Source of the DNA: Arcobacteraceae bacterium
GTDB taxonomy: Bacteria > Campylobacterota > Campylobacteria > Campylobacterales > Arcobacteraceae
Length of the DNA: 64,000 bases
NCBI GenBank assembly: GCA_021107755.1
Contig: JAIOSF010000012.1
Location: 1 to 64,000, forward strand
Direction: 5' to 3'
The notes under the pieces were generated by a model that ran no database searches, was not told the DNA's origin, and was given only the letters and a program-made list of their open reading frames with translations. The position numbers and the translations under genes are program-made. Each line of letters opens with the position of its first letter. The stretch's first letter is position 1. Below are positions 489 to 61,235 of this stretch, piece by piece.

Positions 489-1701
489 AGTGTCATCTCC
501 ACCATTTTCCCATTTACTATTTCCCCAAACTCAATTCCAAAATCAAAACAATCCATTAGTTCCTCTTTTGTTGGTATAAGTTTTATTTTCATAGGATCTA
601 GAGGAACTCTAAACTTCAAGTTTTTTAATCTTCCATTCATCATATCAACTGCTTCTCCACTCCATCCATAAGAGCCAAAACAACCACCAAATTTTCCTTT
701 TTTAGTAACATCATACAACTCAATAGATCCCAAACAGGTTTTGGTACATCTCCATTAATTGTTGGGCTACCAATAATAATACCAGTACTTTCTTCTAAAA
801 TTGTAAGCATATTTTGTTCATCAAGAGCAGTTAAATCATAAATATTTGCTATTAAATTATCATTAGATTCAATACCATTATAAATACTTTCTGCCATATT
901 TTTAGTATTTTTATAACTAGTTACATAGAAGATTGAAACAACTTTTTTCCCATGTCGTAAATCATCTTTATTACTCCATTTTAAATATTTATCTATATAT
1001 TTTTGAGGATTATTTCGCATAATTGGACCATGTAGATTACATATCATATCAATTTTACATTTTTCATAGAGTCTTAGGGCATTTAATACATCTGTTTTAA
1101 ATGGTCGCATAATATGGTCATAATAGTATTTAAAGGCATAATCAAAATCACCAACTAAATCATCAAATAATCTATCATCAAAATAGTGACTTCCAAATAC
1201 ATCACCACTAAATAATATCTCATCTTCAACCAAATAACTACTCATAGTTTCAGGCCAATGTAGATTTGGTGTACTTAAAAATTTTAGTGTTTTATTCCCA
1301 ATTTTAAGTTCTTTGTTAGTCCAAACATTTTCTAAGTTCATCTCATCTGTTTTTGCAATAGATTTTAACATAGGTCTAGCCATTGGTGAGATAAATACTT
1401 TTGCATTATTTGTCCGTTTTACAAGTTCTGGTAAAGCACCACTATGATCTGGTTCTAGATGATGCATAACGATATATTTAATATCCTCATATTTACAAAC
1501 AGATTCTAGTTTTTTAAAAAACTCTTCTTGAAATTCATATTTTACAGTGTCAAAAATAACAACACCCTCTGGTGTTTTAAGTAAGTAAGCGTTGTATGTA
1601 GTTCCATTTGCTGTTTTCATAATAATATCAAATGTTCTAATATCGGGATCACTTACCCCAATATAAAAAAGGTCTTTTTTTATCTGTATTGCTTGTTTCA
1701 T
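485..1701 (-). CDS. fprA: Flavodiiron protein FprA (A-type), interrupted by a -1 frameshift
   Basis: An N-terminal beta-lactamase-like diiron domain (residues about 1-250, HLEPDH metal motif, later GDVF and LHGP) is followed by a flavodoxin domain. The first frame runs for 353 codons and stops at 640. The flavodoxin half continues in the -1 frame from about 733 to 485 (GKFGGCFGSYGWSGEAV). The frames must join near codon 333 at a run of six A; the joined protein would be about 405 residues, the normal family length. Flavodiiron proteins reduce O2 or NO to water or N2O, and this one sits in a nif operon, so oxygen protection of nitrogenase is a reasonable inference. One lost A (mutation or sequencing error) or programmed frameshifting could explain the break. 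Confidence 0.85.
697..703 (-). other. Frameshift point / slippery heptamer A AAA AAG in fprA
   Basis: The minus strand reads CTA AAA AAG GAA in the upstream frame, so A-AAA-AAG is phased as a canonical -1 slippery heptamer. After slipping, reading continues as AAA AAA GGA AAA TTT, giving KKGKFGGCFGSYGW, which matches flavodiiron proteins. I see no convincing upstream Shine-Dalgarno stimulator or strong downstream hairpin, so a lost A (A7 to A6) is equally possible. Confidence 0.6.
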
Positions 1702-1712
1702 AGTTACTTTTA

Positions 1713-1728
1713 TGCAATAACTATTCCT
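1713..1728 (-). promoter_or_regulatory. Sigma-54-type promoter element before fprA-nifQ-nifS
   Basis: Minus strand AGGAATAGTTATTGCA has GG and GC separated by exactly ten bases, the -24/-12 spacing of RpoN promoters. It overlaps the end of hemD and lies only 12 bases before the fprA ATG, so a normal start point would give almost no leader. The same layout occurs before the three other nif units here. Confidence 0.6.
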
Positions 1729-2626
1729 ACTTTAACTCCAACGCTTTTTTTACACAAGATTCTAAAGAAGTATTCTCTGCAATCACTGGTTTTATATAGT
1801 CTGGGAAAAACTTTGCAGTGGTTTGTCCTATACTAATAGCAGTATAACTTTCATCCCATTCTACATTTTTTAAAAAACACTCTATAGTAGATGGAGAAGA
1901 GAAAATTATTGCAGAATTTTTAGGAATTTTTATTTTCTTTTTATATTCTTTACATACTGTTTCATATATAACTAAATTATCACATTCTACATTATTCTTT
2001 TTTAGTATAGTAGTAAGATTAGAAACTACTTTTGCACCACCTACATATAGAACTTTTTTCCCTTTTAAATCATTTGTAATTTCTTGTGCAAACTGATCTC
2101 CATGATGTTCTTTCCCAACTAGTTTTAATTTTCCACCAAGAGATTTTACCACTTTTGCAGTTTGAGGAGCAATAACATATGAAGGTATTTTCTTCCAACT
2201 ATTATCCATACTATCTAATGCTTTTACAGCATTTTTAGATGTAAAAATAAGTGCATCATATTTTTCTAAGTTAATATCCTGTTTTTTATATTTGATATCA
2301 ATAACAGGTATACTTTTAGTGTGTTTAATATTTTTATCAGTTAAAATATATATTTTTTTATTACTATTTTTTATCCCTTTAAATATATTTTTAAATCGTT
2401 GTTTTAGTCTTATTAAAAATCTGTCTTCATGAGAGATAACTATATCCTTATTCTCATCTATAAAAAATTCTATGTCATCTTTAGAGAGGGTATATGTTAT
2501 TTTTATCATCTCTTGATAAGCATTTTCTTTTTGAGAATTCACATCTACAAAAAGTGTATTTGAGGTGATGTCATATTCATAATATAATAAATTTAAAGGT
2601 TCTAATAATTTTTTTATTTTATCCAT
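1727..2626 (-). CDS. hemD: Uroporphyrinogen-III synthase with N-terminal extension
   Basis: 299 residues. From about residue 90 onward the sequence follows the HemD (HEM4) pattern of two alternating alpha/beta lobes: IFTSKNAVKAL, YVIAPQTAKVV, VLYVGGAKVV, LVIYET, IIFSSPSTIECF and TAISIGQTTA. HemD closes hydroxymethylbilane to uroporphyrinogen III, the branch point for heme and siroheme; siroheme is needed by the sulfite reductase farther right. The first 85-90 residues are extra compared with the usual 210-250-residue family and I do not recognise them. It is divergent from sfsA, and its stop overlaps the fprA promoter element, so it is probably not part of the nif unit. Confidence 0.8.
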   Translation of the reverse strand: MDKIKKLLEPLNLLYYEYDITSNTLFVDVNSQKENAYQEMIKITYTLSKDDIEFFIDENKDIVISHEDRFLIRLKQRFKNIFKGIKNSNKKIYILTDKNIKHTKSIPVIDIKYKKQDINLEKYDALIFTSKNAVKALDSMDNSWKKIPSYVIAPQTAKVVKSLGGKLKLVGKEHHGDQFAQEITNDLKGKKVLYVGGAKVVSNLTTILKKNNVECDNLVIYETVCKEYKKKIKIPKNSAIIFSSPSTIECFLKNVEWDESYTAISIGQTTAKFFPDYIKPVIAENTSLESCVKKALELK

Positions 2627-2690
2627 TTGTTAAAGTTCCAGATTATTTTATTTAGGTATATTACTACAATAGTGATAAGGATAAAGTAAA

Positions 2691-3383
2691 ATGAAATTTG
2701 ACATACTCACACATGGAAAACTCATAAAAAGATATAAAAGATTTTTAGCTGATATACAACTTGATAATGGGGAAACAATAACTGCACATGTACCAAATAG
2801 TGGTGCAATGACCTCTACAATTGAAACTGGTTGCGATGTTTGGGTAAGCTTTCATGATAATCCCAAAAGAAAACTCAAATATACATTAGAACTTACAAAA
2901 TTGTATGATCAATATATTTGTACAAACACAAATGTAGCAAATAAGATAGCAATAGAAGCAATACAAAATGGGATAATTAAAGAGTTACACAATTATAAAA
3001 CTTTAAAGCCAGAACAAAAATATGGACAAAATAGTCGCATAGATATCTTACTTGAGAATGAAAATGAAAAGTGTTATGTAGAGGTAAAAAGTGTCACTTT
3101 AAAAATAGAAGATAATTTGGCATTTCCAGACTCTATTACTTCAAGAGGAGAGAAACATCTCAATGAACTAGCACAAATGGTAAAAGATGGTCATAGGGCA
3201 GTGATGTTATATATAATTCAAAGAACTGATAATCTCCCATTTAGAATTGCAAGTGAAATTGATAAAAAATATTATGAGAGTTTTTTAAATGTCACTAAAA
3301 AAGGTGTAGAAGTATTAGTCTATCAATCAAGTATCTCACAAAAGGAGATATTTATAGATAGAAAATTAAATTTTAAAATTTAG
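2691..3383 (+). CDS. sfsA: SfsA family protein (sugar fermentation stimulation protein homologue)
   Basis: 230 residues, full length for SfsA. Visible family segments are AHVPNSGAM, the SRIDILL...YVEVKSVTL core resembling a PD-(D/E)xK nuclease fold, and FPDSITSRGEKHLNEL. The biochemical role of SfsA is not settled; the E. coli name comes from maltose metabolism and DNA binding. It has an AAGGATAAAGTAAA leader before ATG. It converges with the diguanylate cyclase gene and the two stop codons overlap by four bases. Identification is confident, function is not. Confidence 0.9.
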   Translation: MKFDILTHGKLIKRYKRFLADIQLDNGETITAHVPNSGAMTSTIETGCDVWVSFHDNPKRKLKYTLELTKLYDQYICTNTNVANKIAIEAIQNGIIKELHNYKTLKPEQKYGQNSRIDILLENENEKCYVEVKSVTLKIEDNLAFPDSITSRGEKHLNELAQMVKDGHRAVMLYIIQRTDNLPFRIASEIDKKYYESFLNVTKKGVEVLVYQSSISQKEIFIDRKLNFKI

Positions 3384-4537
3384 TTCTCACCATAAATTTT
3401 AATAGTATCTCTTCCACTCTCTTTAGCTTCATAGAGGGCTATATCTGCTAATTTAAAAGCTTCTAAAAAGTTTTTAGAGCTACTTGGTGTTTTATTAACC
3501 CCAATAGAGACTGTAATATAAATATAATCTTCTTCATTAATAAACATCTTATGTTCTTTTATATTTGAAAATACTCGTTGAATCACACTGAGTGAAGTAT
3601 CACTATTTTCAGATTTGTTCTTTATAAAAATAACAAACTCTTCACCACCATATCTAACAACAATATCTTCCTCTACTCTAATTGTATGAAGTAATATATT
3701 ACCAACTTCACGAAGTATTATATCTCCAACATCATGACCATAAGTGTCATTGACATTTTTAAAATAATCTATATCAAGTGCTGCAATCATATATTCATCT
3801 AAATTAACTGTATCTTCTATCTCATGAAGATAGTTTCTATTATATACATTTGTTAATCTATCTGTAAATGACTGTTGTTTCATCCTTTTATATCTTATAA
3901 ACTGTATTAAAAAAACAATAAATAATAGAAATACAATACCAAGAATAAAAAATAATCCACTTTTCATCATTATGATGATTTCATTTATTTTTTGTAACTT
4001 ATCAATTGAAAAATCAATAACTAAAACCAGTTTTACTTCCTCTTTATACAATACTGGAACTAAATAACTCAGTGAAAGTTTTTGTAGGTAAGTATGTTTA
4101 ATAATAACTGGTAATTTTGTTTCATATAGTTCAAACCATTTATCACTTGTAATATCAAGTTTTTGATCTATCATCGCTTTTTCTTCAGAACCATCAACTA
4201 AAAATCGAAAAGTGTTTTTTCTATCTTTATAGAGCAAATATGCATATTTTATATTTGGTGTTATAAGATTTTTGAGTTGCATCTCTAATCTTTTTTGTAA
4301 CTGTGTATCTTTTTTTATATCATTTATATAATCATCACTATATCTTAAAATTTTTGTAATATGGTCTGCTTTATTTTGAGTAATATGTAATACATCTGTT
4401 GTTGCTATTGTGAACATGTCTTTTTCAATATTTTTTTCATATTGAAATATTATATAAAGTAAAAAAACTAAAAAAGATACGACTACAAACAATCCAGCAA
4501 CAAGATAATAAGGGTTTTTTAAAAAATTTTTATTCAT
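3380..4537 (-). CDS. Membrane diguanylate cyclase (periplasmic sensor domain plus GGDEF)
   Basis: 385 residues. One transmembrane helix at about 12-32, a periplasmic region of about 150 residues of Cache-like character, a second helix at about 190-212, then a GGDEF domain with an intact GGEEF active site at about 297-301 and the DxDxFKxxND segment (DIDYFKNVNDTYGHD). This should make c-di-GMP from two GTP. I see no canonical RxxD inhibitory site ahead of GGEEF. It overlaps the preceding small periplasmic-protein gene by eight bases and is the last gene of a three-gene unit with a TonB-dependent receptor, which suggests that an outer-membrane or periplasmic signal controls it. Confidence 0.9.
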   Translation of the reverse strand: MNKNFLKNPYYLVAGLFVVVSFLVFLLYIIFQYEKNIEKDMFTIATTDVLHITQNKADHITKILRYSDDYINDIKKDTQLQKRLEMQLKNLITPNIKYAYLLYKDRKNTFRFLVDGSEEKAMIDQKLDITSDKWFELYETKLPVIIKHTYLQKLSLSYLVPVLYKEEVKLVLVIDFSIDKLQKINEIIIMMKSGLFFILGIVFLLFIVFLIQFIRYKRMKQQSFTDRLTNVYNRNYLHEIEDTVNLDEYMIAALDIDYFKNVNDTYGHDVGDIILREVGNILLHTIRVEEDIVVRYGGEEFVIFIKNKSENSDTSLSVIQRVFSNIKEHKMFINEEDYIYITVSIGVNKTPSSSKNFLEAFKLADIALYEAKESGRDTIKIYGEN

Positions 4538-46027: not shown

Positions 46028-47125
46028 ATGGAATTAGGTTTACTACTAATATTTTGGTATGGTATTTTACATGCTTTTGGACCTGACCATCTTACTGCTA
46101 TTGCTGACTTTTCAATTGGTAAATCTAAAAAGAAGACCCTACTTATTACAATAGCCTTTGCCATAGGACATGGTGTGATGCTCTTTATATTTGCAAAAAT
46201 TCTAGAGTATTATAGTCTCCCTGAATATATAACAAACTATGGAGATATCATAAGCTCTATTGTAATTTTATCTATGGGTTTATATATATTATTTATGGTG
46301 TTTTCAAATCGAATACAACTAAAAGTTCATAATCATCAAGGGAAAGATCATATCCATATATGGTTTGGGAAAAACCATGAACATGATAATACCGCTACAG
46401 CAAGTGCATTTACTATTGGTGCTTTAATGGGTATTGGTGGAGTTAGAGGTATGCTTGTAACACTAGGTCTGATAGAGGGAAAAAGTGTTGATTTTATTTT
46501 AATTTTGATGTTTGTATTGGGGGTAAGTGTAGTTTTTGTATCTCTTGGTGTTATCATACTTTATATAAATCAAAACCTACTTAATAATCTACAAAACATT
46601 AGAAGAGTATTTACAACAGTTGGGATTATCTCTGTAATTGTAGGGGCAAATATGCTTTTTACTCCACACTCCCATGCAGTGATAATAGAACCAAATATCC
46701 AAGGTATTGAAAATCATTCACATCCTCATCCATTAAACGATGAATTAAACAATGCTGATGCATTAGTTCAAAGTAAAACAAAATCTGATATGACATACAA
46801 ACAGATGATGCAAAGAATGGGTGAAGCTTATAAGATGATGCAAACAGGTATAATAAATCAAAATAAAGAATTAGTAAAAATGGGAATTTGGATGATAGAT
46901 AATCACCCAGCACCTAAAGAGAAACCTTGGAGCATTGTCAAAGAAAAAGATAAAGAAAGTTTTAAAAAAACTTTGATAGCATACAATAATTTGCTACATT
47001 CAAGTAGTAATACAATAAATCAATCACTTAACAGTGATGATTGGGTAGAGATAAATAAAAAAGTATTTGAGTTATCAAATCATTGTTTATCTTGCCATCA
47101 TTTATGGAAAAATAATTTAAAATAA
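46028..47125 (+). CDS. NicO/RcnA-like metal transporter fused to a cytochrome c'-like domain
   Basis: 365 residues. Residues 1-225 are a membrane transporter with the metal motif HAFGPDHLTAIADFSIG, a His-rich loop (HNHQGKDHIHIW...NHEHD) and further helices (GALMGIGGVRGM). Residues 250-365 are soluble and helical, ending FELSNHCLSCHHLWKNN; a CxxCH at the very end of a four-helix segment is the pattern of cytochrome c' or c556. So a nickel/cobalt-type transporter carries a periplasmic heme domain. It lies between hupE and hypB. The fusion is unusual; it could couple metal transport to redox state. Confidence 0.78.
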   Translation: MELGLLLIFWYGILHAFGPDHLTAIADFSIGKSKKKTLLITIAFAIGHGVMLFIFAKILEYYSLPEYITNYGDIISSIVILSMGLYILFMVFSNRIQLKVHNHQGKDHIHIWFGKNHEHDNTATASAFTIGALMGIGGVRGMLVTLGLIEGKSVDFILILMFVLGVSVVFVSLGVIILYINQNLLNNLQNIRRVFTTVGIISVIVGANMLFTPHSHAVIIEPNIQGIENHSHPHPLNDELNNADALVQSKTKSDMTYKQMMQRMGEAYKMMQTGIINQNKELVKMGIWMIDNHPAPKEKPWSIVKEKDKESFKKTLIAYNNLLHSSSNTINQSLNSDDWVEINKKVFELSNHCLSCHHLWKNNLK

Positions 47126-49405: not shown

Positions 49406-49651
49406 ATGAGTGCAAATGATGTTAGAAAAAACTTTGTGTTTAAAAAAGATGTTGCACAGCACCTTGAAGAGATAGCAAAAAGAGAGAATAAATCTATGAC
49501 AAAAGTTGTAGAGGAGCTTGTAGAGAAAAAGTATAGTGAAGTAAGTAAGGAAGAGAAATTAAAAGCAGTTCATGCTTTTTTTGAAGGAACAAAAGGGATG
49601 TTTGAACCGGGCATGACTATACAGTCTATCAAGGCAAATATGGATGTATAA
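49406..49651 (+). CDS. Antitoxin of a VapBC-like pair (ribbon-helix-helix type)
   Basis: 81 residues. Residues 8-45 (KNFVFKKDVAQHLEEIAKRENKSMTKVVEELVEKKYSE) fit a ribbon-helix-helix DNA-binding unit; the rest (HAFFEGTKGMFEPGMTIQSIKANMDV) would be the toxin-binding tail. It overlaps the PIN-domain gene by eight bases and precedes it, the usual antitoxin-toxin order. It should repress its own promoter and neutralise the RNase. The family is assigned by pattern and context. Confidence 0.75.
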   Translation: MSANDVRKNFVFKKDVAQHLEEIAKRENKSMTKVVEELVEKKYSEVSKEEKLKAVHAFFEGTKGMFEPGMTIQSIKANMDV

Positions 49652-50066
49652 AAAAGTATTCTTAGATGCAAATATATTTATAGATAAAGAAGATGAAACT
49701 AGAGATTTAGACAAGAATAGTTTAAAAGTTTTATCCTCTCTACTTAGCAATGATGTGGAACTTTTTACAAGTTGTGATTTGATAACTACTATTTACTATA
49801 TACTCGCAAAAAAAGATAAACAAAAAGCTCTTGAAGCAATTGAAAATATAAATAAAATCTGCAAAATTATAGATTTCACAAATATTGAAGTGAATCAAAC
49901 TTGCGCACTTATGAAAGAAAATCCAAAATTTAAAGACCTTGAAGATACTATTCAATATATCTTAGCTAAAAAAGAAGGATGTAATTTAATTATCTCAAAT
50001 GATAAAGAGTTTGCTTGTGATGAGATAGAGTTAGTAACGACTAAAGAGTTTTTAGAAAAAATATAA
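49644..50066 (+). CDS. PIN-domain RNase toxin (VapC-like)
   Basis: 140 residues. The PIN acidic residues are in place: FLDANIFID near the start, a middle DLITTIYYI, then DLEDTIQYILA and IISNDKEF near the end. PIN toxins cleave RNA, often tRNA, when their antitoxin is degraded. The start overlaps the antitoxin gene. The pair sits between hypD and the MazG-like gene and splits the hyp genes. Confidence 0.82.
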   Translation: MYKKVFLDANIFIDKEDETRDLDKNSLKVLSSLLSNDVELFTSCDLITTIYYILAKKDKQKALEAIENINKICKIIDFTNIEVNQTCALMKENPKFKDLEDTIQYILAKKEGCNLIISNDKEFACDEIELVTTKEFLEKI

Positions 50067-50076
50067 TAGGCTAAAA

Positions 50077-50430
50077 ATGGATATAGAAAAAATAAAACAA
50101 AGAATACAAAAATTTAGTGATGATAGAGATTGGAACTCGCATCATAATCCTAAAAATCTTGTCATGGCACTCACAGGTGAAGTTGGAGAGCTCAATGAGA
50201 TATTTCAGTGGCTTGATTTTGATGACTCTACAAATCTTCCCCCTGAGGTATTAGAGCACACAAAAGAGGAAGTGGCAGACATAGCTATCTATCTTATTCG
50301 TCTTTGTATGAAACTTGATATAGATTTAGAGGATACAATTCATAGTAAAATGGGTAAAAATGAGATAAAATACCCTCCACAAAGTTCATCTGGTAATCAG
50401 AAAAAATATGGTAAAAGTATAAATAGATAA
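50077..50430 (+). CDS. MazG-like nucleotide pyrophosphohydrolase
   Basis: 117 residues. GEVGELNEIFQW and KEEVADIAIYLIRLC show the ExxE and ExxD metal-binding helices of the MazG/RS21-C6 (dCTPase) family. It hydrolyses non-canonical or excess (d)NTPs in the cytosol. It starts 10 bases after the PIN toxin, so it may be cotranscribed with the toxin-antitoxin pair. The C-terminal tail is polar and variable. Confidence 0.88.
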   Translation: MDIEKIKQRIQKFSDDRDWNSHHNPKNLVMALTGEVGELNEIFQWLDFDDSTNLPPEVLEHTKEEVADIAIYLIRLCMKLDIDLEDTIHSKMGKNEIKYPPQSSSGNQKKYGKSINR

Positions 50431-50443
50431 AAGGTAAAACTCC

Positions 50444-51421
50444 ATGAATTTAAAACAATATAAACAACAACTCATCGACCTAGTAATTGATTTAAAAAAA
50501 TATGATGCTAATAAAGCAGATGAGGACTATCAAGAGTTAAAAAAACTCTTTGATATAGTCTATGAAAGTGGTGTTTTAAATATAACACATCTTGAGAAAG
50601 ATATACAAGATGAATATAAATTAGAACTTTTTACTTTTCTCTCTAGTATCTCTGGTACTTTATCATTTTTAACCATACAAATATTAGCTGCATATAATAT
50701 CATGGCAAAAAATCATTATCATAAAAGAGAATATTACTTCAAAAAAAAATGTGGAATTGCTATTAATCATCTTCGAGCACCCGTAACAGTAATAAGTTCG
50801 GAAAAAGTAGAAGGTGGATACAAACTCAATGGTACTTTAACATGGGCTAGTGGATATAAAATATTTGATACACTTCTTATAGGTTTTCATAATGATGGTT
50901 TTGAGTATGAAGCTATGACTAAATTTGAACCTCAAGAAGGATTTAATATACAAGAAGCTGACACTACTTTTGTAGCATATGCTCTTAATACTGTCAATAT
51001 TGAGCTAAAAGATTTTTTTGTAAAAGAGGAAGATGTTATCTCATCAAACAATATAGGTAACTACACAAAAGTAAAATCAGCTTCAAAAACTGTTCACTTT
51101 TGCCTTTATGGATTAGCTGTATCTGCTATTTTACAATCAAAGAACAATCACTTTATAGCCAAAGCTACTTATGACCTTGAAGCAATAAAAAATAAAATAA
51201 TCACCTCTTGCGATACTTATGAACTTGATCTTTTAAGAGTTGAATTATTTAATTTAGTACAAGCTATAGTTACTACAGCAATGACTTTAATAGGTGGAAA
51301 ATCTGTTCTAGCTTCACAAAACCTCCAAAGAGTTTATAGAGAACTTATAATGTTTAATTCAAATGGTTTAAATGATACATTAAAAGATATATTTAAAACT
51401 AAATTTATAAATCGAAAATAG
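50444..51421 (+). CDS. Acyl-CoA dehydrogenase-fold protein of unknown substrate
   Basis: 325 residues. A helical N-terminal part is followed by a middle segment (CGIAINHLRAPVTVISSEKVEGGYKLNGTLTWASGYKIFDTLLIGF) that matches the beta-domain of acyl-CoA dehydrogenases, where FAD and the acyl chain bind, and then by a helical C-terminus. It is shorter than typical enzymes (about 380) and I do not find the catalytic Glu with confidence. It may be a flavin monooxygenase-type relative. It is followed by a FetB-like gene one base away. Confidence 0.65.
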   Translation: MNLKQYKQQLIDLVIDLKKYDANKADEDYQELKKLFDIVYESGVLNITHLEKDIQDEYKLELFTFLSSISGTLSFLTIQILAAYNIMAKNHYHKREYYFKKKCGIAINHLRAPVTVISSEKVEGGYKLNGTLTWASGYKIFDTLLIGFHNDGFEYEAMTKFEPQEGFNIQEADTTFVAYALNTVNIELKDFFVKEEDVISSNNIGNYTKVKSASKTVHFCLYGLAVSAILQSKNNHFIAKATYDLEAIKNKIITSCDTYELDLLRVELFNLVQAIVTTAMTLIGGKSVLASQNLQRVYRELIMFNSNGLNDTLKDIFKTKFINRK

Positions 51422-51422
51422 T

Positions 51423-52115
51423 ATGTATCAAATATCATTTTTGGACCTATTATGGATAGCATTCCCTCTATTATTTGTATACTATATCTATCAAAAATGG
51501 AGTGATGATAAAGTTACTATCCCTTACGCACTTGGACGAATGTTTTTACAACTTATACTTATAGGATATGTCCTTACATATATATTTGAAACTAAAAACT
51601 TTTTTATTATTATATTTATATTAACTATAATGCTTGTTGTTGCGAGTGTAATAAGCTTAAGACCTGTTGCAAAAAAAAACAACAAGCTCTATTTTATAAG
51701 TTTTTTGTCAATTTTTATAGGTGGTGTTATCACTTTGGCTTTTGTTATAGGTGGTGTGTTAAACCTTGAACTTTGGTATGAACCAAGATTTCTAATCCCA
51801 CTAGCCGGGATGATATTTGCAAATTCGATGAATAGTGTTTCTATATCTGCTGAGAGGTTTAATGTAGAATATGGAAGAAGTTTTCAATATGAAAGTTCAA
51901 GAAATATTGCCTATAAAGCTGCACTCATACCAAATATAAATAGTCTTTTTGCAGTAGGACTAGTTTCAATTCCAGGGATGATGACAGGACAGATACTTTC
52001 AGGTGTTTCTCCAATTATTGCGGTAAAATATCAAATAATGGTTATGTGTATGATACTTATAAGTAGTGGTATATCTACTGCTATTTATCTTAAGTTATTA
52101 CAACCCAAAAAGTAA
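51423..52115 (+). CDS. FetB/UPF0014-family membrane protein (iron export permease type)
   Basis: 230 residues with about seven hydrophobic helices. The family segments VIGGVLNLELWYEPRFLIPLAGMIFANSMNSVSISAERF and SIPGMMTGQILSGVSPIIAVKYQIMVM fit FetB (YbbM). In E. coli FetB works with the ATPase FetA as an iron exporter. No FetA ATPase is next to it here, so its partner is elsewhere or absent. It is part of the insertion between hypD and hypE. Confidence 0.88.
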   Translation: MYQISFLDLLWIAFPLLFVYYIYQKWSDDKVTIPYALGRMFLQLILIGYVLTYIFETKNFFIIIFILTIMLVVASVISLRPVAKKNNKLYFISFLSIFIGGVITLAFVIGGVLNLELWYEPRFLIPLAGMIFANSMNSVSISAERFNVEYGRSFQYESSRNIAYKAALIPNINSLFAVGLVSIPGMMTGQILSGVSPIIAVKYQIMVMCMILISSGISTAIYLKLLQPKK

Positions 52116-52129
52116 TCTTGTGATGAAGA

Positions 52130-53674
52130 TTGAATTTAAACTATACTATTGGAGCTATGATGGCTAAAATGAATTTTGCAAAAAAAGAAAATAAAGAAAC
52201 CTCAGTTGAAAAAAGTTTTTTCAAGATACTTATTGTTGACGATGAACAAGAGGTACATAATATCACTAAAGCAGTTTTAAGAAATTTTACATTTGAAAAT
52301 AAAAGCGTAGAGATATTAAGTGCTTTTAATGGACAAGAAGCGATTGAAGTATTAAAAGAGCATCCAAATATTGCTTTAATTTTACTTGATGTAGTTATGG
52401 AAACTGATGATGCTGGGCTTATTGTTGCAAAAAGAATAAGAGAAGAATTACATAATAAAAATGTTCGTATTGTTTTAAGAACAGGACAACCAGGATGTGC
52501 TCCTGAAAAAGAGGTGATTGATAATTATGATATCAATGATTATAAAGAAAAAACTGAACTTACCTCTATAAAGCTTTATACTACTATTGTTGCATCACTT
52601 CGTTCATACAGAGATTTAACTATTATTGAAAGAAATAAAAAGGGTTTACAAAAAATTATTTTAGCTTCTAAGTCTATTTTTCAACTAAGCTCTTTAGTTA
52701 TATTTACGGAAGGTGTATTAGAACAACTTGTATCTATTTTAAATATAGGTGATAGTTTTATCCAATCAAAAGCAAGTGATGCTTTTTTTGCCACATTAAA
52801 AAATCAAGATTTTGAGTTATTAGCAACTGCTGGTAAATTTAAAGATAGTGATAACTTCAATATTATTACACCGAGATCACTTGAATATCTTAATAAAGCT
52901 TATGAAAATGAAAAAAGCTATTTTGAAGATGATATTTATGTGGGGTATTTTAAAGCACTTAATAATAAAACTATCTTTTTGTATCTAGAAGGATGTAAAA
53001 ACCTAGAAAAATGTGACAAAGATTTTCTTAATATTTTTTCTAATAACATATCTATTGCTTTTGAAAATATATGTCTTAATGACGAAGTTATAGAAACACA
53101 AAAAGAGATAGTAGAAAGACTTGGTGGAGTGATAGAAAATAGATGTAGTTCAACTGCTGAACATGTTCATAGAGTAGCACAACTCTCTTATTTACTAGCT
53201 AAAGAGTATGGTCTTAGTGAAGATGAAGCATACAAACTAAAACTTGCAAGTCCAATGCATGATATTGGAAAAATTGGTATCCCAGATAAAGTTTTACTAA
53301 AACCAGAGCAACTGACCCCTGATGAATTTAAAATCATTCAAAAACATGTAGATATAGGTGAAGAGATTTTAGCAAACACAAATAGAGAAATATTAAAAAT
53401 AGCAGAAGTTGTAGTTGCTCAGCATCATGAAAAATATGATGGAACTGGATATCCTAGAGGTTTAAAAGGTGATCAAATACATATATATGGGAGAATAACA
53501 GCTATTGCCGATGTATTTGATGCACTTTCATATAAACGAGTCTATAAAGATGCTTGGGAATATGAAAAAATTTTAGAATATTTTAAACAACAAAGAGGGA
53601 AACAATTTGATCCAGAACTGATTGATATATTTTTTAATAATCTTGATAAAGTAAAAGAGATATATGAAATTTAA
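52130..53674 (+). CDS. Response regulator with DUF3369 and HD-GYP domain (c-di-GMP phosphodiesterase)
   Basis: 514 residues. A receiver (residues about 30-155: ILIVDDEQEVHN, LILLDVVME, a terminal Lys in KEKTEL), a DUF3369 middle domain (about 160-310), and HD-GYP at about 325-510 with intact HDIGKIGIPDK and HHEKYDGTGYPRGLKGD. It should break down c-di-GMP when phosphorylated. Its end overlaps by eleven bases the start of the next gene, a histidine kinase, which is the obvious partner. Confidence 0.93.
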   Translation: MNLNYTIGAMMAKMNFAKKENKETSVEKSFFKILIVDDEQEVHNITKAVLRNFTFENKSVEILSAFNGQEAIEVLKEHPNIALILLDVVMETDDAGLIVAKRIREELHNKNVRIVLRTGQPGCAPEKEVIDNYDINDYKEKTELTSIKLYTTIVASLRSYRDLTIIERNKKGLQKIILASKSIFQLSSLVIFTEGVLEQLVSILNIGDSFIQSKASDAFFATLKNQDFELLATAGKFKDSDNFNIITPRSLEYLNKAYENEKSYFEDDIYVGYFKALNNKTIFLYLEGCKNLEKCDKDFLNIFSNNISIAFENICLNDEVIETQKEIVERLGGVIENRCSSTAEHVHRVAQLSYLLAKEYGLSEDEAYKLKLASPMHDIGKIGIPDKVLLKPEQLTPDEFKIIQKHVDIGEEILANTNREILKIAEVVVAQHHEKYDGTGYPRGLKGDQIHIYGRITAIADVFDALSYKRVYKDAWEYEKILEYFKQQRGKQFDPELIDIFFNNLDKVKEIYEI

Positions 53675-55502
53675 AAATATTATTACAAAACTTTACATTG
53701 CTCTAGGTTTTATTGTCAGTATATCACTAGCTATTGTAATGTTTTCAAACTATTCAAGTTCCATACTTGAAAAAAACAATAAAAAAAGACATGAGATCAA
53801 CAATGAAATTATATTTTTTGAATCAATGCTAGGTAAACATGAAAAGTATGTAAAAGAGATGTTACATTCAATGATATTTCAAACAAAATTTACAAAAGAA
53901 TTAAACCCAAAAAAATGTAATTTTGGACAGTGGTATTACAAAATGATAAACTCTGAAAAGTTTAAAGAACTTCCAAAAAATATACAAAAAGATATTTTAG
54001 GTATTGAACTTAGTCACACAATACTTCACCAAACAGGAAGAATCATAAAAGAGCAATATGTATCATTAGATAGACATCTAAAAGACTCTCTTATGGAGAT
54101 AAAAATAAAACATATAAAATTTCAATACTATTTAAAAAAACAAATTGAGAATAAACAGTTAATAAATAGAGGTCTTAATAGTAAGACCTGTTCTTATGGT
54201 ATATGGTGGGAATCATATCAACTTTCCAATGAATATCAAAACCAAACTACCCCGCAAATAAAAAAATTATTTCAAAAAAATATGTTAGCACATAAAAATA
54301 TGCACCAAACTATTAATAAAATTTATCAACTACAAAAAAAGAATCAATATACCAAAATAAATAAAATATTTTACACAACTTACCAACAACAATTTACAAA
54401 TATGGTAAATACTTTTGATGCAATTTTAGCTCAAATAGATAAGATAGAACAAAACAACAAATCTATACGAGATGATTTAACACTACTTATTCCTCCTTCT
54501 CTAAAAGTTTTAAAAGAGGGTCTAAAACCTTATCAAAACTATCTTCATAAACAAAGAGATGAAGCTATTTTGGAAATTGAGCAAAATTCCGAGCTTCTTG
54601 ATACTATCTCTATGGTATTGACCATTTTAAATATTATTATAATCATTATAGTTGGATACTGGATACAATATCATTTAGTAGAGCAAATAAGATATTTAAA
54701 AGAGCGATATAAAGAGCTACAAGAAACACAAACCCAGCTTGTAGAATCAGAGAAAATGGCTTCTTTAGGGGGAATGGTTGCTGGTGTTGCCCATGAGATT
54801 AATACTCCTGTTGGTGTAGCACTTACAGCTATTACACATCTTGAAGATGAGACAAAAGCACTCAAAAAAAATTATGATGCTGATAATATGAGTCAAGAAG
54901 ACTTTGAAGAGTATTTAAAACATAGTATGGAACTTAATAAATCTATTAATATCAATTTAAATAAAGCAGCATCTCTTGTAAGAAGTTTCAAACAAGTTGC
55001 AGTTGACCAAACAAGTGAACATGATAGAACTTTTAATTTAGCACAATATATAAATGAAATTTTACAATCATTACATAGTCAACTTAAAAGAACTTATATT
55101 ACTATAGAACTCAATCTAAATGACAAATTAGAAATTTATTCAAATCCTGGAGCTATTTCCCAAATTTTAAGTAATTTTATTATGAATTCTATGATTCATG
55201 GTATTGGGGGGAAACCAGAAGGTATTATAAAAATTGAAACCATACAAGAAGATGATTATTTTATTCTCACTTATAGTGATAATGGTAAAGGGATGGATAA
55301 AGAAACTCAAGAAAAAGTATACGAACCATTTTTTACAACAAATAGAGAAAATGGAGGAAGTGGCTTAGGGATGAATATCATATTTAATCTTGTAACACAA
55401 AAACTTCATGGTACAATAGACTTAGAAACAAGTCCAAATAATGGTGTTCTGTTTACAATTAAAGCACCACTACATTATAAAGAAATAACAAATAAGGTTT
55501 AA
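53664..55502 (+). CDS. Histidine kinase with two tandem CZB-like zinc-binding domains
   Basis: 612 residues. TM1 about 8-28, periplasmic region about 30-310, TM2 about 312-332, then HisKA with GVAHEINTPVGVALT near 377 and HATPase (SNFIMNSMIHG, GKGMD, GGSGLGMNI). The periplasmic part holds two copies of a CZB-type pattern: H59, C85-x2-G-x-W90, H118, H122; and H150, C176-x2-G-x-W181, H210, H214. CZB domains bind Zn through three His and one Cys, often to sense zinc or hypochlorite. The gene overlaps the HD-GYP regulator, so it may control c-di-GMP breakdown in response to zinc or oxidant. Confidence 0.85.
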   Translation: MKFKNIITKLYIALGFIVSISLAIVMFSNYSSSILEKNNKKRHEINNEIIFFESMLGKHEKYVKEMLHSMIFQTKFTKELNPKKCNFGQWYYKMINSEKFKELPKNIQKDILGIELSHTILHQTGRIIKEQYVSLDRHLKDSLMEIKIKHIKFQYYLKKQIENKQLINRGLNSKTCSYGIWWESYQLSNEYQNQTTPQIKKLFQKNMLAHKNMHQTINKIYQLQKKNQYTKINKIFYTTYQQQFTNMVNTFDAILAQIDKIEQNNKSIRDDLTLLIPPSLKVLKEGLKPYQNYLHKQRDEAILEIEQNSELLDTISMVLTILNIIIIIIVGYWIQYHLVEQIRYLKERYKELQETQTQLVESEKMASLGGMVAGVAHEINTPVGVALTAITHLEDETKALKKNYDADNMSQEDFEEYLKHSMELNKSININLNKAASLVRSFKQVAVDQTSEHDRTFNLAQYINEILQSLHSQLKRTYITIELNLNDKLEIYSNPGAISQILSNFIMNSMIHGIGGKPEGIIKIETIQEDDYFILTYSDNGKGMDKETQEKVYEPFFTTNRENGGSGLGMNIIFNLVTQKLHGTIDLETSPNNGVLFTIKAPLHYKEITNKV

Positions 55503-55506
55503 TAAT

Positions 55507-56160
55507 ATGTCAGATTTAGAAAAAGAATTTTTAGATAATAAAAATAGAGAAAAAGATATCTGGAGAATGTTTAAAATTTTAAGTGATTTTACAGACGCCA
55601 ATGAAGACTTATGTAGCTTACCACAAGCAATATCTATATTTGGAAGTGCAAGAACTGATAAAAATCACAAACATTATCAAGATGCCTACAAGATATCAAA
55701 GCGATTATCAAAAGAAGGATATGCAATCATCACTGGTGGTGGTGGAGGTATTATGGAAGCTGGAAATAAAGGTGCAAAAATATCAGTAGGACTTAATATA
55801 AAACTTCCTGCTGAACAAAAAATAAATAAATTTGTAAAACTATCTTTACAATTTCGTTACTTTTTCACAAGAAAAGTTACTTTTTTAAAATACTCTGTAG
55901 GATTTGTAGTAATGCCTGGTGGCTTTGGAACTTTAGATGAACTTTCAGAAGCTTTATGTTTAGTACAAACAAAAAGGATGGGAGCTTTCCCTATTGTATT
56001 ATTTGGAAAAGATTTTTTTAAACCACTAGAAGCTTTTTTTCAAACAATGTTAGAACACAACTATATTAGTAAAAAAGATTTATCACTTTATCTCATTACA
56101 GATGATATTGATGAAGCAGTTGAATATATCAAAAAAAACTCTATAACAAATGGACATTAA
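55507..56160 (+). CDS. LOG-family protein (TIGR00730, nucleotide 5'-monophosphate phosphoribohydrolase type)
   Basis: 217 residues. The signatures GGGGGIMEAGNKGA and PGGFGTLDELSEAL are those of LOG/YvdD/PpnN-type proteins, which release bases from nucleoside monophosphates and are often mislabelled lysine decarboxylase. It follows the kinase gene by four bases and its end overlaps the start of hypE. The biological role is unclear. Confidence 0.9.
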   Translation: MSDLEKEFLDNKNREKDIWRMFKILSDFTDANEDLCSLPQAISIFGSARTDKNHKHYQDAYKISKRLSKEGYAIITGGGGGIMEAGNKGAKISVGLNIKLPAEQKINKFVKLSLQFRYFFTRKVTFLKYSVGFVVMPGGFGTLDELSEALCLVQTKRMGAFPIVLFGKDFFKPLEAFFQTMLEHNYISKKDLSLYLITDDIDEAVEYIKKNSITNGH

Positions 56161-56161
56161 A

Positions 56162-57151
56162 ATGGAAACAATCAAACTAGCCCACGGAAATGGTGGAGAA
56201 GAGAACAACAAACTTATAAGTGAAGTTTTTTATAAAGCTTTTGAAAATGAGATTTTAGCAAAAAGTGAAGATGCAGCAATTATAGAAGATGGTAAACTTG
56301 CATTTTCCACAGATAGTTTTACTGTAAGCCCCCTATTCTTTAATGGAGCAAACATAGGGAAACTTGCTATTTGTGGTACTTGTAATGACCTAGCAATGAT
56401 GGGTGCAAAACCTAAATATCTTACTTGCAGTGTGATTATTGAAGAGGGATTTAGTGTTAAAGACCTTAAAACTATTGTAGCTTCTATGAAAGAGGAGTTA
56501 GAAAAAAATGGTGCAATAGTAGTCAGTGGTGATACAAAGGTTATGCCAAAAGGGACTATTGATAAAATCATCATAAATACAACAGGAATTGGTGAAATAA
56601 CAAAAGCAAATATTAGTTCAAACAATATAACAACAGAAGATATAATCCTTGTAAATAGAGATATAGGAGCCCATGGAGCTACTATTTTTACAGCTCGTGA
56701 GGGGATTGATATGAGTAGTAGTTTACAAAGTGACTGTGCTTCACTTTATCCAGTTGTAAAAGCTTTGATCGATGCCAATATAAATATCACAGCTTTAAGA
56801 GATGCCACACGAGGTGGAGTAAGTGCTGTACTTAATGAGTGGTCAAAACAATCAAACATATGTGTGGAGGTAGAGGAGGACACTATTCCTGTAAGCGATG
56901 AAGTAAATGGTGTATGTGAGATGTTAGGTTTTGAACCAACAGCTTTAGCAAATGAGGGGACATTTGTACTTGCTATAAATAAAGCAGATAAAGATAAAGC
57001 ACTTGAAATCTTAAAAAAGTTCAATCAAAATGCTACTATTATAGGAAAAGTAACTTCTCAATATCCACAAAAAGTTGTTCTTAATAGTGCCTATGGGACC
57101 TCTCGATTTTTAGATACCCCAACAGGTGAACTTCTTCCAAGAATTTGTTAA
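56162..57151 (+). CDS. hypE: Hydrogenase maturation protein HypE
   Basis: 329 residues from the ATG at 56162; an in-frame ATG at 56150 (MDIKM) is also possible. It has IKLAHGNGGEE near the start, AFSTDSFTVSPLFF, GDTKVMPKG, RDATRGGVSAVLNEW and the C-terminal PRIC, whose last Cys receives the carbamoyl from HypF and is dehydrated to thiocyanate. It is separated from hypD by the inserted genes of 49.4-56.2 kb, yet stays on the same strand. Confidence 0.96.
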   Translation: METIKLAHGNGGEENNKLISEVFYKAFENEILAKSEDAAIIEDGKLAFSTDSFTVSPLFFNGANIGKLAICGTCNDLAMMGAKPKYLTCSVIIEEGFSVKDLKTIVASMKEELEKNGAIVVSGDTKVMPKGTIDKIIINTTGIGEITKANISSNNITTEDIILVNRDIGAHGATIFTAREGIDMSSSLQSDCASLYPVVKALIDANINITALRDATRGGVSAVLNEWSKQSNICVEVEEDTIPVSDEVNGVCEMLGFEPTALANEGTFVLAINKADKDKALEILKKFNQNATIIGKVTSQYPQKVVLNSAYGTSRFLDTPTGELLPRIC

Positions 57152-59249: not shown

Positions 59250-61235
59250 CTACTCTAGCCAAGAGCTAAGTGGTCTTGGTTTTCCTAAAAAGTACCCTTG
59301 TCCATAAGTGATACCAATCTCTCTTAAAGCATCAACATCCTCTTTTGTCTCTACATACTCAGCAACCGTTTCTTGCCCTTTAAGCTGAGCTATCTCTTGG
59401 ATATATCGAATAACTGCATTATCAATAGGATCTTTGTGCATATCTTTTACAAAACTTCCATCAATTTTCACCACATCAAAAGGTAAGCTTTTGAGGTATT
59501 CAAAAGAAGCCATACCTGTACCAAAGTCATCAAGAGCTAACCCTATTTTTTTACTTTTTAACCACAGTATAAACTCATTTGCTCTATTAAAATTTCCAAT
59601 TGCAGAGCTTTCTGTTACCTCTAACTCTAACTTTTCCCAAGGAAAATCAAAATGTTCAACTGCCTCTTTTACTTTAGCTTGAAAATCTGGATTATTTAAA
59701 CTTGAACCTGCAAGATTTATATGTGCTGAATGTAAATTCTCTATATGTTCTTTTTTTTGTGTCACTGTCTCTAAATATGTCCAAAGTACAAATATATCTA
59801 TCTCACTCATAAGTTGATATCTAGCTGCTGCTGGTAAAAAATCATCTGGGGCTATAAAGTTACCATCTCTATCCCACATCCGTATAAGTATCTCATAGCC
59901 TACTTTATCTGTTTCATACTGCAACGGCACTATATCTTGTGCAAAAAGTTCAAATCTTGAAGGTCCCTTGCCTAGTGCTTCTTTGATAAATTTTGCTGTT
60001 TGTATCTCAGTATTAAATCTTTGAGTGATATTATCATCAATATCATAGATATGTGACTTGTTTCTACCTTTACTTTTTGCACTATAAAGCGCACTATTAC
60101 TCGCTTTTAGTAGCTCTTTTAAAGTGTATTGAAATGGTTTAAAATATATTAACGAAATAGATGCTGAGATACTATATGTTTCATTATTATGGGAAAATCT
60201 AAAATCACTAAGCCTCTCTAAACTTTCCTCTAAAAACTTCTTCCCCTCTTCTAAAGTAAAGTTTTTAAGCAATACCATAAAACCATCACCATCAACTCTT
60301 CCAAAAATACCACTCTTAGGCAATATATTTTGATAATCACTTACCACCATTTTTAAAAGTTCATCACCAGCTTGATATCCTGCTGAATCATTGATAAGTT
60401 TAAATTGATCCAAATCAATATATAGAAGAATATGCCCTACTTCACTTTCATCTTTTAAAGAATTTTGCAACTCATTTTCCATATAAAATCTATTATAAAT
60501 ATTTGTAAGTTGATCATGATTAGCCTGATAGTGTAGTTCCTTTGAAGATGCCGAAATCTGTTCCATTTGTGTATTAAAACCATCAAAAAGCTCTTTTATT
60601 TCATTATTAGCTGTTGTTTTTACCTTTATAATTTCATTATTTGTAGGATCACTTTTTTTCATAGCATCAAGAAGATTTATAAAAGGTTTTGTATAGTTTT
60701 TACTTAAAAAGCTACTAACCATAAATCCAAATAATAAAGCAAATGGGAAGATTGCTAAAATTGTATAGGCTGTTTGTAATTGTTTTTGTTTGTATGTAGA
60801 GAGATTTATATCTAAAAGTAAAAAACCAAAAGTATATCCTTCTGCTTTTATCTCATTTTTAATAAAAAGATGATTTTCAGTAAAAATTATATTTTTTTTA
60901 AATATCTCCTCTTTTTGATTTTTTATATCAATTTCATGGGCATATTTATAAATACTATTTTTGTTTTCATCATATAAAATAAGACCATCTATCTTGGGAA
61001 ATGCTGTCAATCTGTAAGTGATATCAGATAACATATCAGCATTGGGATTTAACATCACTTTTAAAAGATCATTATTTAGAGATTTTGTTATCGCTTCAAC
61101 TTCTAAAATAGCATTTTTTTGATTCTCTTTTTGTTGTAAATTGTATACAAAAAAGAGTGTACTTATCTCTACAACAGTAACAACTATTGTCATAAATATA
61201 ACAAGTTGGATTTTTATATTAAAGCGATTCCACAT
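59250..61235 (-). CDS. Membrane GGDEF-EAL protein (degenerate GGDEF; EAL motif reads EIL)
   Basis: 661 residues. TM about 10-30, periplasmic domain to about 155, TM about 157-178, HAMP, then GGDEF (about 245-400) and EAL (about 415-661). The GGDEF site reads VDGDGF, so cyclase activity is unlikely. In the EAL domain, the motif reads EIL, while INLAGSSL, LEVTES, LDDFGTG, VKIDGSF and VAEYVET are kept, so phosphodiesterase activity is plausible, or it may bind c-di-GMP as LapD does. Convergent with hypA. Confidence 0.88.
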   Translation of the reverse strand: MWNRFNIKIQLVIFMTIVVTVVEISTLFFVYNLQQKENQKNAILEVEAITKSLNNDLLKVMLNPNADMLSDITYRLTAFPKIDGLILYDENKNSIYKYAHEIDIKNQKEEIFKKNIIFTENHLFIKNEIKAEGYTFGFLLLDINLSTYKQKQLQTAYTILAIFPFALLFGFMVSSFLSKNYTKPFINLLDAMKKSDPTNNEIIKVKTTANNEIKELFDGFNTQMEQISASSKELHYQANHDQLTNIYNRFYMENELQNSLKDESEVGHILLYIDLDQFKLINDSAGYQAGDELLKMVVSDYQNILPKSGIFGRVDGDGFMVLLKNFTLEEGKKFLEESLERLSDFRFSHNNETYSISASISLIYFKPFQYTLKELLKASNSALYSAKSKGRNKSHIYDIDDNITQRFNTEIQTAKFIKEALGKGPSRFELFAQDIVPLQYETDKVGYEILIRMWDRDGNFIAPDDFLPAAARYQLMSEIDIFVLWTYLETVTQKKEHIENLHSAHINLAGSSLNNPDFQAKVKEAVEHFDFPWEKLELEVTESSAIGNFNRANEFILWLKSKKIGLALDDFGTGMASFEYLKSLPFDVVKIDGSFVKDMHKDPIDNAVIRYIQEIAQLKGQETVAEYVETKEDVDALREIGITYGQGYFLGKPRPLSSWLE

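Follow-up and report, generated by a model that had tools for sequence, protein, structure and literature searches.

CZB domains have been studied as cytosolic zinc and HOCl sensors of chemoreceptors and diguanylate cyclases. The locus described here lies in a 64,000-nt stretch of an Arcobacteraceae contig (the window) and raises the question of whether a histidine kinase can carry two such sites outside the cytoplasm, and what it would control together with the HD-GYP regulator encoded beside it. The reading favored here, with a probability of roughly 55%, is that a periplasmic double-CZB sensor was swapped into an existing histidine kinase/HD-GYP cassette, in which zinc occupancy or cysteine oxidation would set c-di-GMP hydrolysis.

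The features discussed are collected in Table 1. The Pfam search with the whole kinase recovered CZB (E 5.9e-10, two stretches) and HATPase_c (E 1.1e-18), HisKA scored below threshold (22.6 bits; cut-off 26.9), and no HAMP domain was found. The motifs HEINTP (377), NFIMNS (504), DNGKGM (539), and GGSGLGM (564) are present, and the protein has the HisKA phosphoacceptor and the N, G1, and G2 boxes of HATPase_c that define an orthodox sensor histidine kinase.

Table 1. Coordinates of the kinase, its domains, the adjacent regulator, and a related chemoreceptor (positions in the window unless another genome is named).
Feature	Coordinates	Strand	Description
Sensor histidine kinase	53664..55502	+	612 aa, ATG start; TM1 - CZB - CZB - helical hairpin - TM2 - HisKA - HATPase_c
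Transmembrane helix 1 (kinase)	53679..53753	+	residues ~6-30; hydropathy, within model helix 2-72
CZB copy 1 (kinase)	53838..54047	+	residues 59-128; predicted ligands H59, C85, H118, H122; Pfam PF13682 above cut-off; profile match to DgcZ CZB 3T9O
CZB copy 2 (kinase)	54111..54323	+	residues ~150-220; predicted ligands H150, C176, H210, H214; below Pfam cut-off; motif and internal-duplication tests
Membrane-proximal helical hairpin (kinase)	54348..54599	+	residues ~229-312; model helices 229-286 and 288-344
Transmembrane helix 2 (kinase)	54588..54680	+	residues ~309-339; enters kinase linker without HAMP
HisKA dimerization/phosphoacceptor domain	54768..54935	+	residues 369-424; likely phospho-His H377
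HATPase_c catalytic domain	55149..55472	+	residues 496-603; Pfam
Response regulator REC-DUF3369-HD-GYP	52160..53674	+	504 aa; 11 nt overlap with kinase ORF; D77, HD 367-368, HHEKYDGTGYP 422-432
L123 tandem-CZB chemoreceptor (in G682)	1450-3861	+	804 aa, several HAMP matches

The initial annotation had proposed two CZB-type sites in this kinase, each with a full His-Cys-His-His set and C-x2-G-x-W, and had made the proposal depend on a profile search recovering CZB, which it did. Three histidines, one cysteine, and the C-x2-G-x-W motif occur in both copies, with nearly identical spacing (copy 1 and copy 2: H-C 26 and 26, C-H 33 and 34, H-H 4 and 4 residues), and C85 and C176 are the only cysteines of the whole protein. 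Against the curated Pfam cut-off for CZB (PF13682) of 29.4 bits, copy 1 scored 32.3 bits separately and 33.0 bits in the scan of its own genome, and copy 2 scored 17.5 bits (E 0.0054) and 17.2 bits, respectively. When residues 137-312 were shuffled, the motif H-C-x2-G-x-aromatic-HxxxH appeared in one of 200,000 shuffles, and the score of 68 for the alignment of copy 1 with copy 2 was reached by none of 5,000. Scored by itself with a less refined CZB profile of our own making, copy 2 was about level with the best 0.1% of its own shuffles, so the case for copy 2 rests on motif and duplication, not on profile score. Judged by its ligand register, the motif shuffles, and its similarity to copy 1, we regard copy 2 as a real CZB-type copy despite its sub-cut-off score. 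Zinc binding is predicted for both copies from their motifs.

Both copies are predicted to be periplasmic, since hydropathy places a hydrophobic stretch on either side of the sensor region (transmembrane helices 1 and 2 in Table 1), in agreement with the topology put forward in the initial annotation. The model of the sensor, made from a two-sequence alignment, is all-helical (mean pLDDT 80, pTM 0.53), with helices at residues 2-72, 86-95, 105-131, 139-162, 177-194, 197-225, 229-286, and 288-344. H59, H118/H122, H150, and H210/H214 lie within helices, C85 and C176 stand immediately ahead of helix starts in the loops that are the lowest-certainty regions of the model, and the final helix extends via TM2 into the linker. 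The structure prediction put forward as a check thus gave helices in the expected order but no significant fold match for the whole sensor; some of the weak matches are helical ligand-binding domains, e.g., McpS. Copy 2 modeled alone was poor (pLDDT 63) and likewise had no significant match in the fold search. A phmmer search of the PDB with the single sensor sequence gave no match; only multi-sequence profiles led to a known structure. The best match of a profile built from four periplasmic CZB regions was 3T9O, the DgcZ CZB domain solved by crystallography (E 8e-4), with His and Cys aligned. A CZB-like helical-bundle fold of the sensor is suggested by the model.

CZB domains are frequent in the phylum, with at least one in 344 of the 397 sampled genomes, and the genome carrying the kinase encodes eight CZB proteins. 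Relatives of the sensor and kinase were sought non-exhaustively in sampled genomes, about 690 distinct by handle. No other CZB histidine kinase was among the matches listed from these related genomes, no orthologous kinase was among those listed from the family, order, and phylum samples or found in plasmids, and in viral contigs one search gave kinase matches confined to the ATPase region and another gave none. The sole genome-contig match (L019) was rejected as an orthologue, being a single-CZB chemoreceptor identical in sequence to L012. Within the family, the sensor relatives found were the single-CZB periplasmic chemoreceptors L011 and L012, L013 with its CheW-like/CZB layout, L122 as a weak and partial match, and a chemoreceptor of the congener G074 (L121; 85-1911, minus strand). 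The periplasmic region of L121 is related, with another residue at the position of the CZB cysteine (TSILGEW), and its zinc site is apparently lost.

Tandem-CZB chemoreceptors were found in other families (n = 3: L123 of G682, L017 of G161, and L146 of G131), and they also have the membrane-proximal helical hairpin. L123 contains two CZB stretches (65.3 bits in total) with eight of eight ligands in register, and its copy 2 is the top-scoring stretch of the protein. It is a good alternative for structural work, and its gene immediately follows a CheA-like gene. L017 has the first copy-2 His displaced by one residue, and L146 lacks the first His of copy 1 and, in copy 2, both the Cys and the first His, so not every tandem sensor has the full two-site set. 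The predicted ligand pair comprises the sole cysteines in three of the four tandem sensors (the kinase, G682, and G161), and G131 keeps one Cys only. Ligand conservation, on which the initial annotation had also staked its claim, therefore holds in G682 and nearly completely in G161 but is partly lost in G131, and it was read from homologous sensors on other outputs, not from orthologous kinases. The architecture is rare, with no second CZB kinase among the matches listed from the sampled genomes, but the tandem sensor itself is shared with these chemoreceptors. The double-CZB region is a recurring and apparently exchangeable sensor that retains its ligands in most cases, though not in all, and the histidine kinase output is so far unique among the double-CZB sensors found in the sampled genomes.

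These comparisons bear on what the zinc sites might do. They may be structural, stapling two helical modules together, with another ligand of the helical sensor or of the membrane-proximal hairpin as the true signal. Such a role would suit the ~85 sensor residues that belong to neither CZB copy and that the tandem chemoreceptors share, the persistence of the G131 sensor without several ligands, and the non-significant fold matches to helical ligand-binding domains. However, the characterized CZB domains are regulatory (PMC8262984, PMC12871147), and the absence of any cysteine beyond the predicted ligands in most tandem sensors also argues against it; we consider it rather unlikely. It is doubtful, too, that copy 1 is the only working zinc site and copy 2 a duplicated, diverging helical repeat. 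The low score of copy 2, the ligand decay in G131, and the shifted His in G161 point that way, but copy 2 has its four ligands, Gly, and Trp in the expected register in both the window kinase and G682, and in the latter it outscores every other stretch of the protein. A thiol redox sensor, in which apo C85 and C176 form a disulfide or undergo oxidation independently, with zinc serving only to keep the thiols reduced, is improbable: it would fit the presence of exactly two cysteines, one per copy, here and in G682 and G161, and the published oxidation of the CZB Cys by HOCl (PMC8262984), but C85 and C176 belong to different copies, at a distance of 91 residues, and G131 retains a single cysteine.

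The proposal of a sensor swapped into an existing cassette is best followed from the regulator. Its REC phosphoacceptor Asp, HD, and HHExxDGxGYP motifs are all intact, as expected of an HD-GYP response regulator, so c-di-GMP hydrolysis is its likely output. In Vibrio cholerae VC1348, a REC-HD-GYP protein, the HD residues are required in vivo (PMC4212101). The pairing of this kinase core with a REC-DUF3369-HD-GYP regulator recurs in about a dozen relatives (L080-L094), where the two ORFs are adjacent and often overlapping. The cores of the adjacent kinases are ~48-56% identical for most, and the regulators near a similar kinase are 46-63% identical and have the same REC-DUF3369-HD-GYP layout. 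The sensors differ: PilJ-PAS, Tll0287-like, CHASE5-HAMP, SSF (sodium:solute symporter), and ABC_sub_bind-PAS occur, and none of the cassette sensors of the relatives examined is a CZB. No close paralogue of the kinase core was found in the same genome. From sequence comparison, the window kinase and regulator appear to belong to a cassette whose sensors are swapped. Functional pairing with the neighboring HD-GYP regulator, to which the initial annotation had pointed, is very likely because the cassette recurs in relatives with swapped sensors and the two ORFs overlap. The relatives of this common cassette also offer ready-made controls.

CZB domains bind one zinc ion through three His and one Cys, and HOCl oxidation of the Cys promotes zinc release and changes the output (PMC8262984; PMC12871147). 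TlpD and DgcZ are both controlled by zinc occupancy and Cys oxidation, with opposite effects: zinc-bound TlpD activates the kinase CheA, and zinc-bound DgcZ is inhibited (PMC8262984; PMC12871147). By analogy, after the double-CZB sensor had replaced the input domain of the cassette, each copy would bind one zinc ion through its three His and one Cys. Zinc loss, through scarcity or oxidation of the Cys thiolate, would repack the helix bundle, and the movement could pass from the last periplasmic helix through TM2 to the kinase dimerization helices, altering the balance of kinase and phosphatase activity. We infer this direct coupling from the course of the model's final helix, via TM2 into the linker, and from the lack of a HAMP match. 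The altered balance would change REC phosphorylation of the overlapping regulator and thereby its HD-GYP phosphodiesterase activity toward c-di-GMP. The least secure element is HOCl as the natural signal; the availability of zinc, or another oxidant, would fit just as well. A lone thiol may not last in so oxidizing a compartment as the periplasm, which counts against a zinc-thiolate sensor; the sub-cut-off score of copy 2, its poor model, the lack of a significant fold match for the sensor model, the ligand changes in G131 and G161, and the failure to find an orthologous kinase in which ligand conservation could be read likewise count against the double-CZB reading. Tentatively, each chain could use its two zinc-thiolate sites to detect envelope zinc and oxidants in a graded or coincidence-dependent manner, as a distinct extracytoplasmic module that has passed between chemoreceptors and a histidine kinase. 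Since its sole cysteines are the two predicted ligands, the kinase is well suited to a clean distinction between zinc sensing and oxidant sensing by CZB.

In the 2021 survey of 10,140 CZB sequences, seven architectures were distinguished, with no kinase class, and ~3.9% of the domains were periplasmic (PMC8262984), which bears out the earlier statement that CZB domains are usually cytosolic. No description of a tandem, double, or kinase-linked CZB was found in the full-text literature, mostly papers available without subscription. The kinase copies share with the CZB domains of TlpD, McpA, and DgcZ the His-Cys-His-His set and C-x2-G-x-W, and a helical fold is predicted for them, but they are in tandem, predicted to be periplasmic, and linked to a histidine kinase output. 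A further comparison is with periplasmic chemoreceptors that carry N-terminal CZB between two membrane helices, including L123 and L017, which also resemble the kinase in their tandem copies and similar total sensor length, with the full ligand set in G682. Their output is an MCP signaling domain, in contrast to HisKA/HATPase_c, and sensor identity is ~19-23%. The novelty of the kinase is a combination of known parts (a tandem periplasmic CZB, a standard kinase, and an HD-GYP regulator), and the tandem module itself is not unique. If the reading is true, a kinase with two extracytoplasmic CZB domains would extend CZB to classical two-component signaling and to envelope zinc.

The kinase/regulator pair sits between hypD and hypE, in a same-strand run of genes from 49406 to 57151 whose neighbors overlap or stand no more than 44 nt apart, and co-transcription with the hyp genes is plausible. 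No histidine kinase or response regulator lies there in the congeners, for which the interval was covered whole in G074, up to a truncated hypE in G073, and on the hypE side only in G072. Their gene order is hypD-LOG-hypE in G074, hypD, two small genes, and hypE in G073, and LOG-hypE in G072, and different genes are inserted in the interval among relatives. The hyp location alone is therefore weak evidence, and a functional tie of the pair to hydrogenase maturation was rejected as unsupported. The interval looks insertion-prone, with other small modules in relatives; in the window, a VapB-like/PIN-domain pair, a likely toxin-antitoxin, directly follows hypD (49406-50066). Beside hypB, a 365-aa membrane protein (46028-47125) has no Pfam match at E 0.01; its congener homologues are ~213 aa long, and in the window copy CLSCH, which may be a haem c motif, lies in a C-terminal extension. 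A GGDEF-EAL membrane protein near the HD-GYP regulator (59250-61235, minus strand) is a second c-di-GMP gene of the neighborhood.
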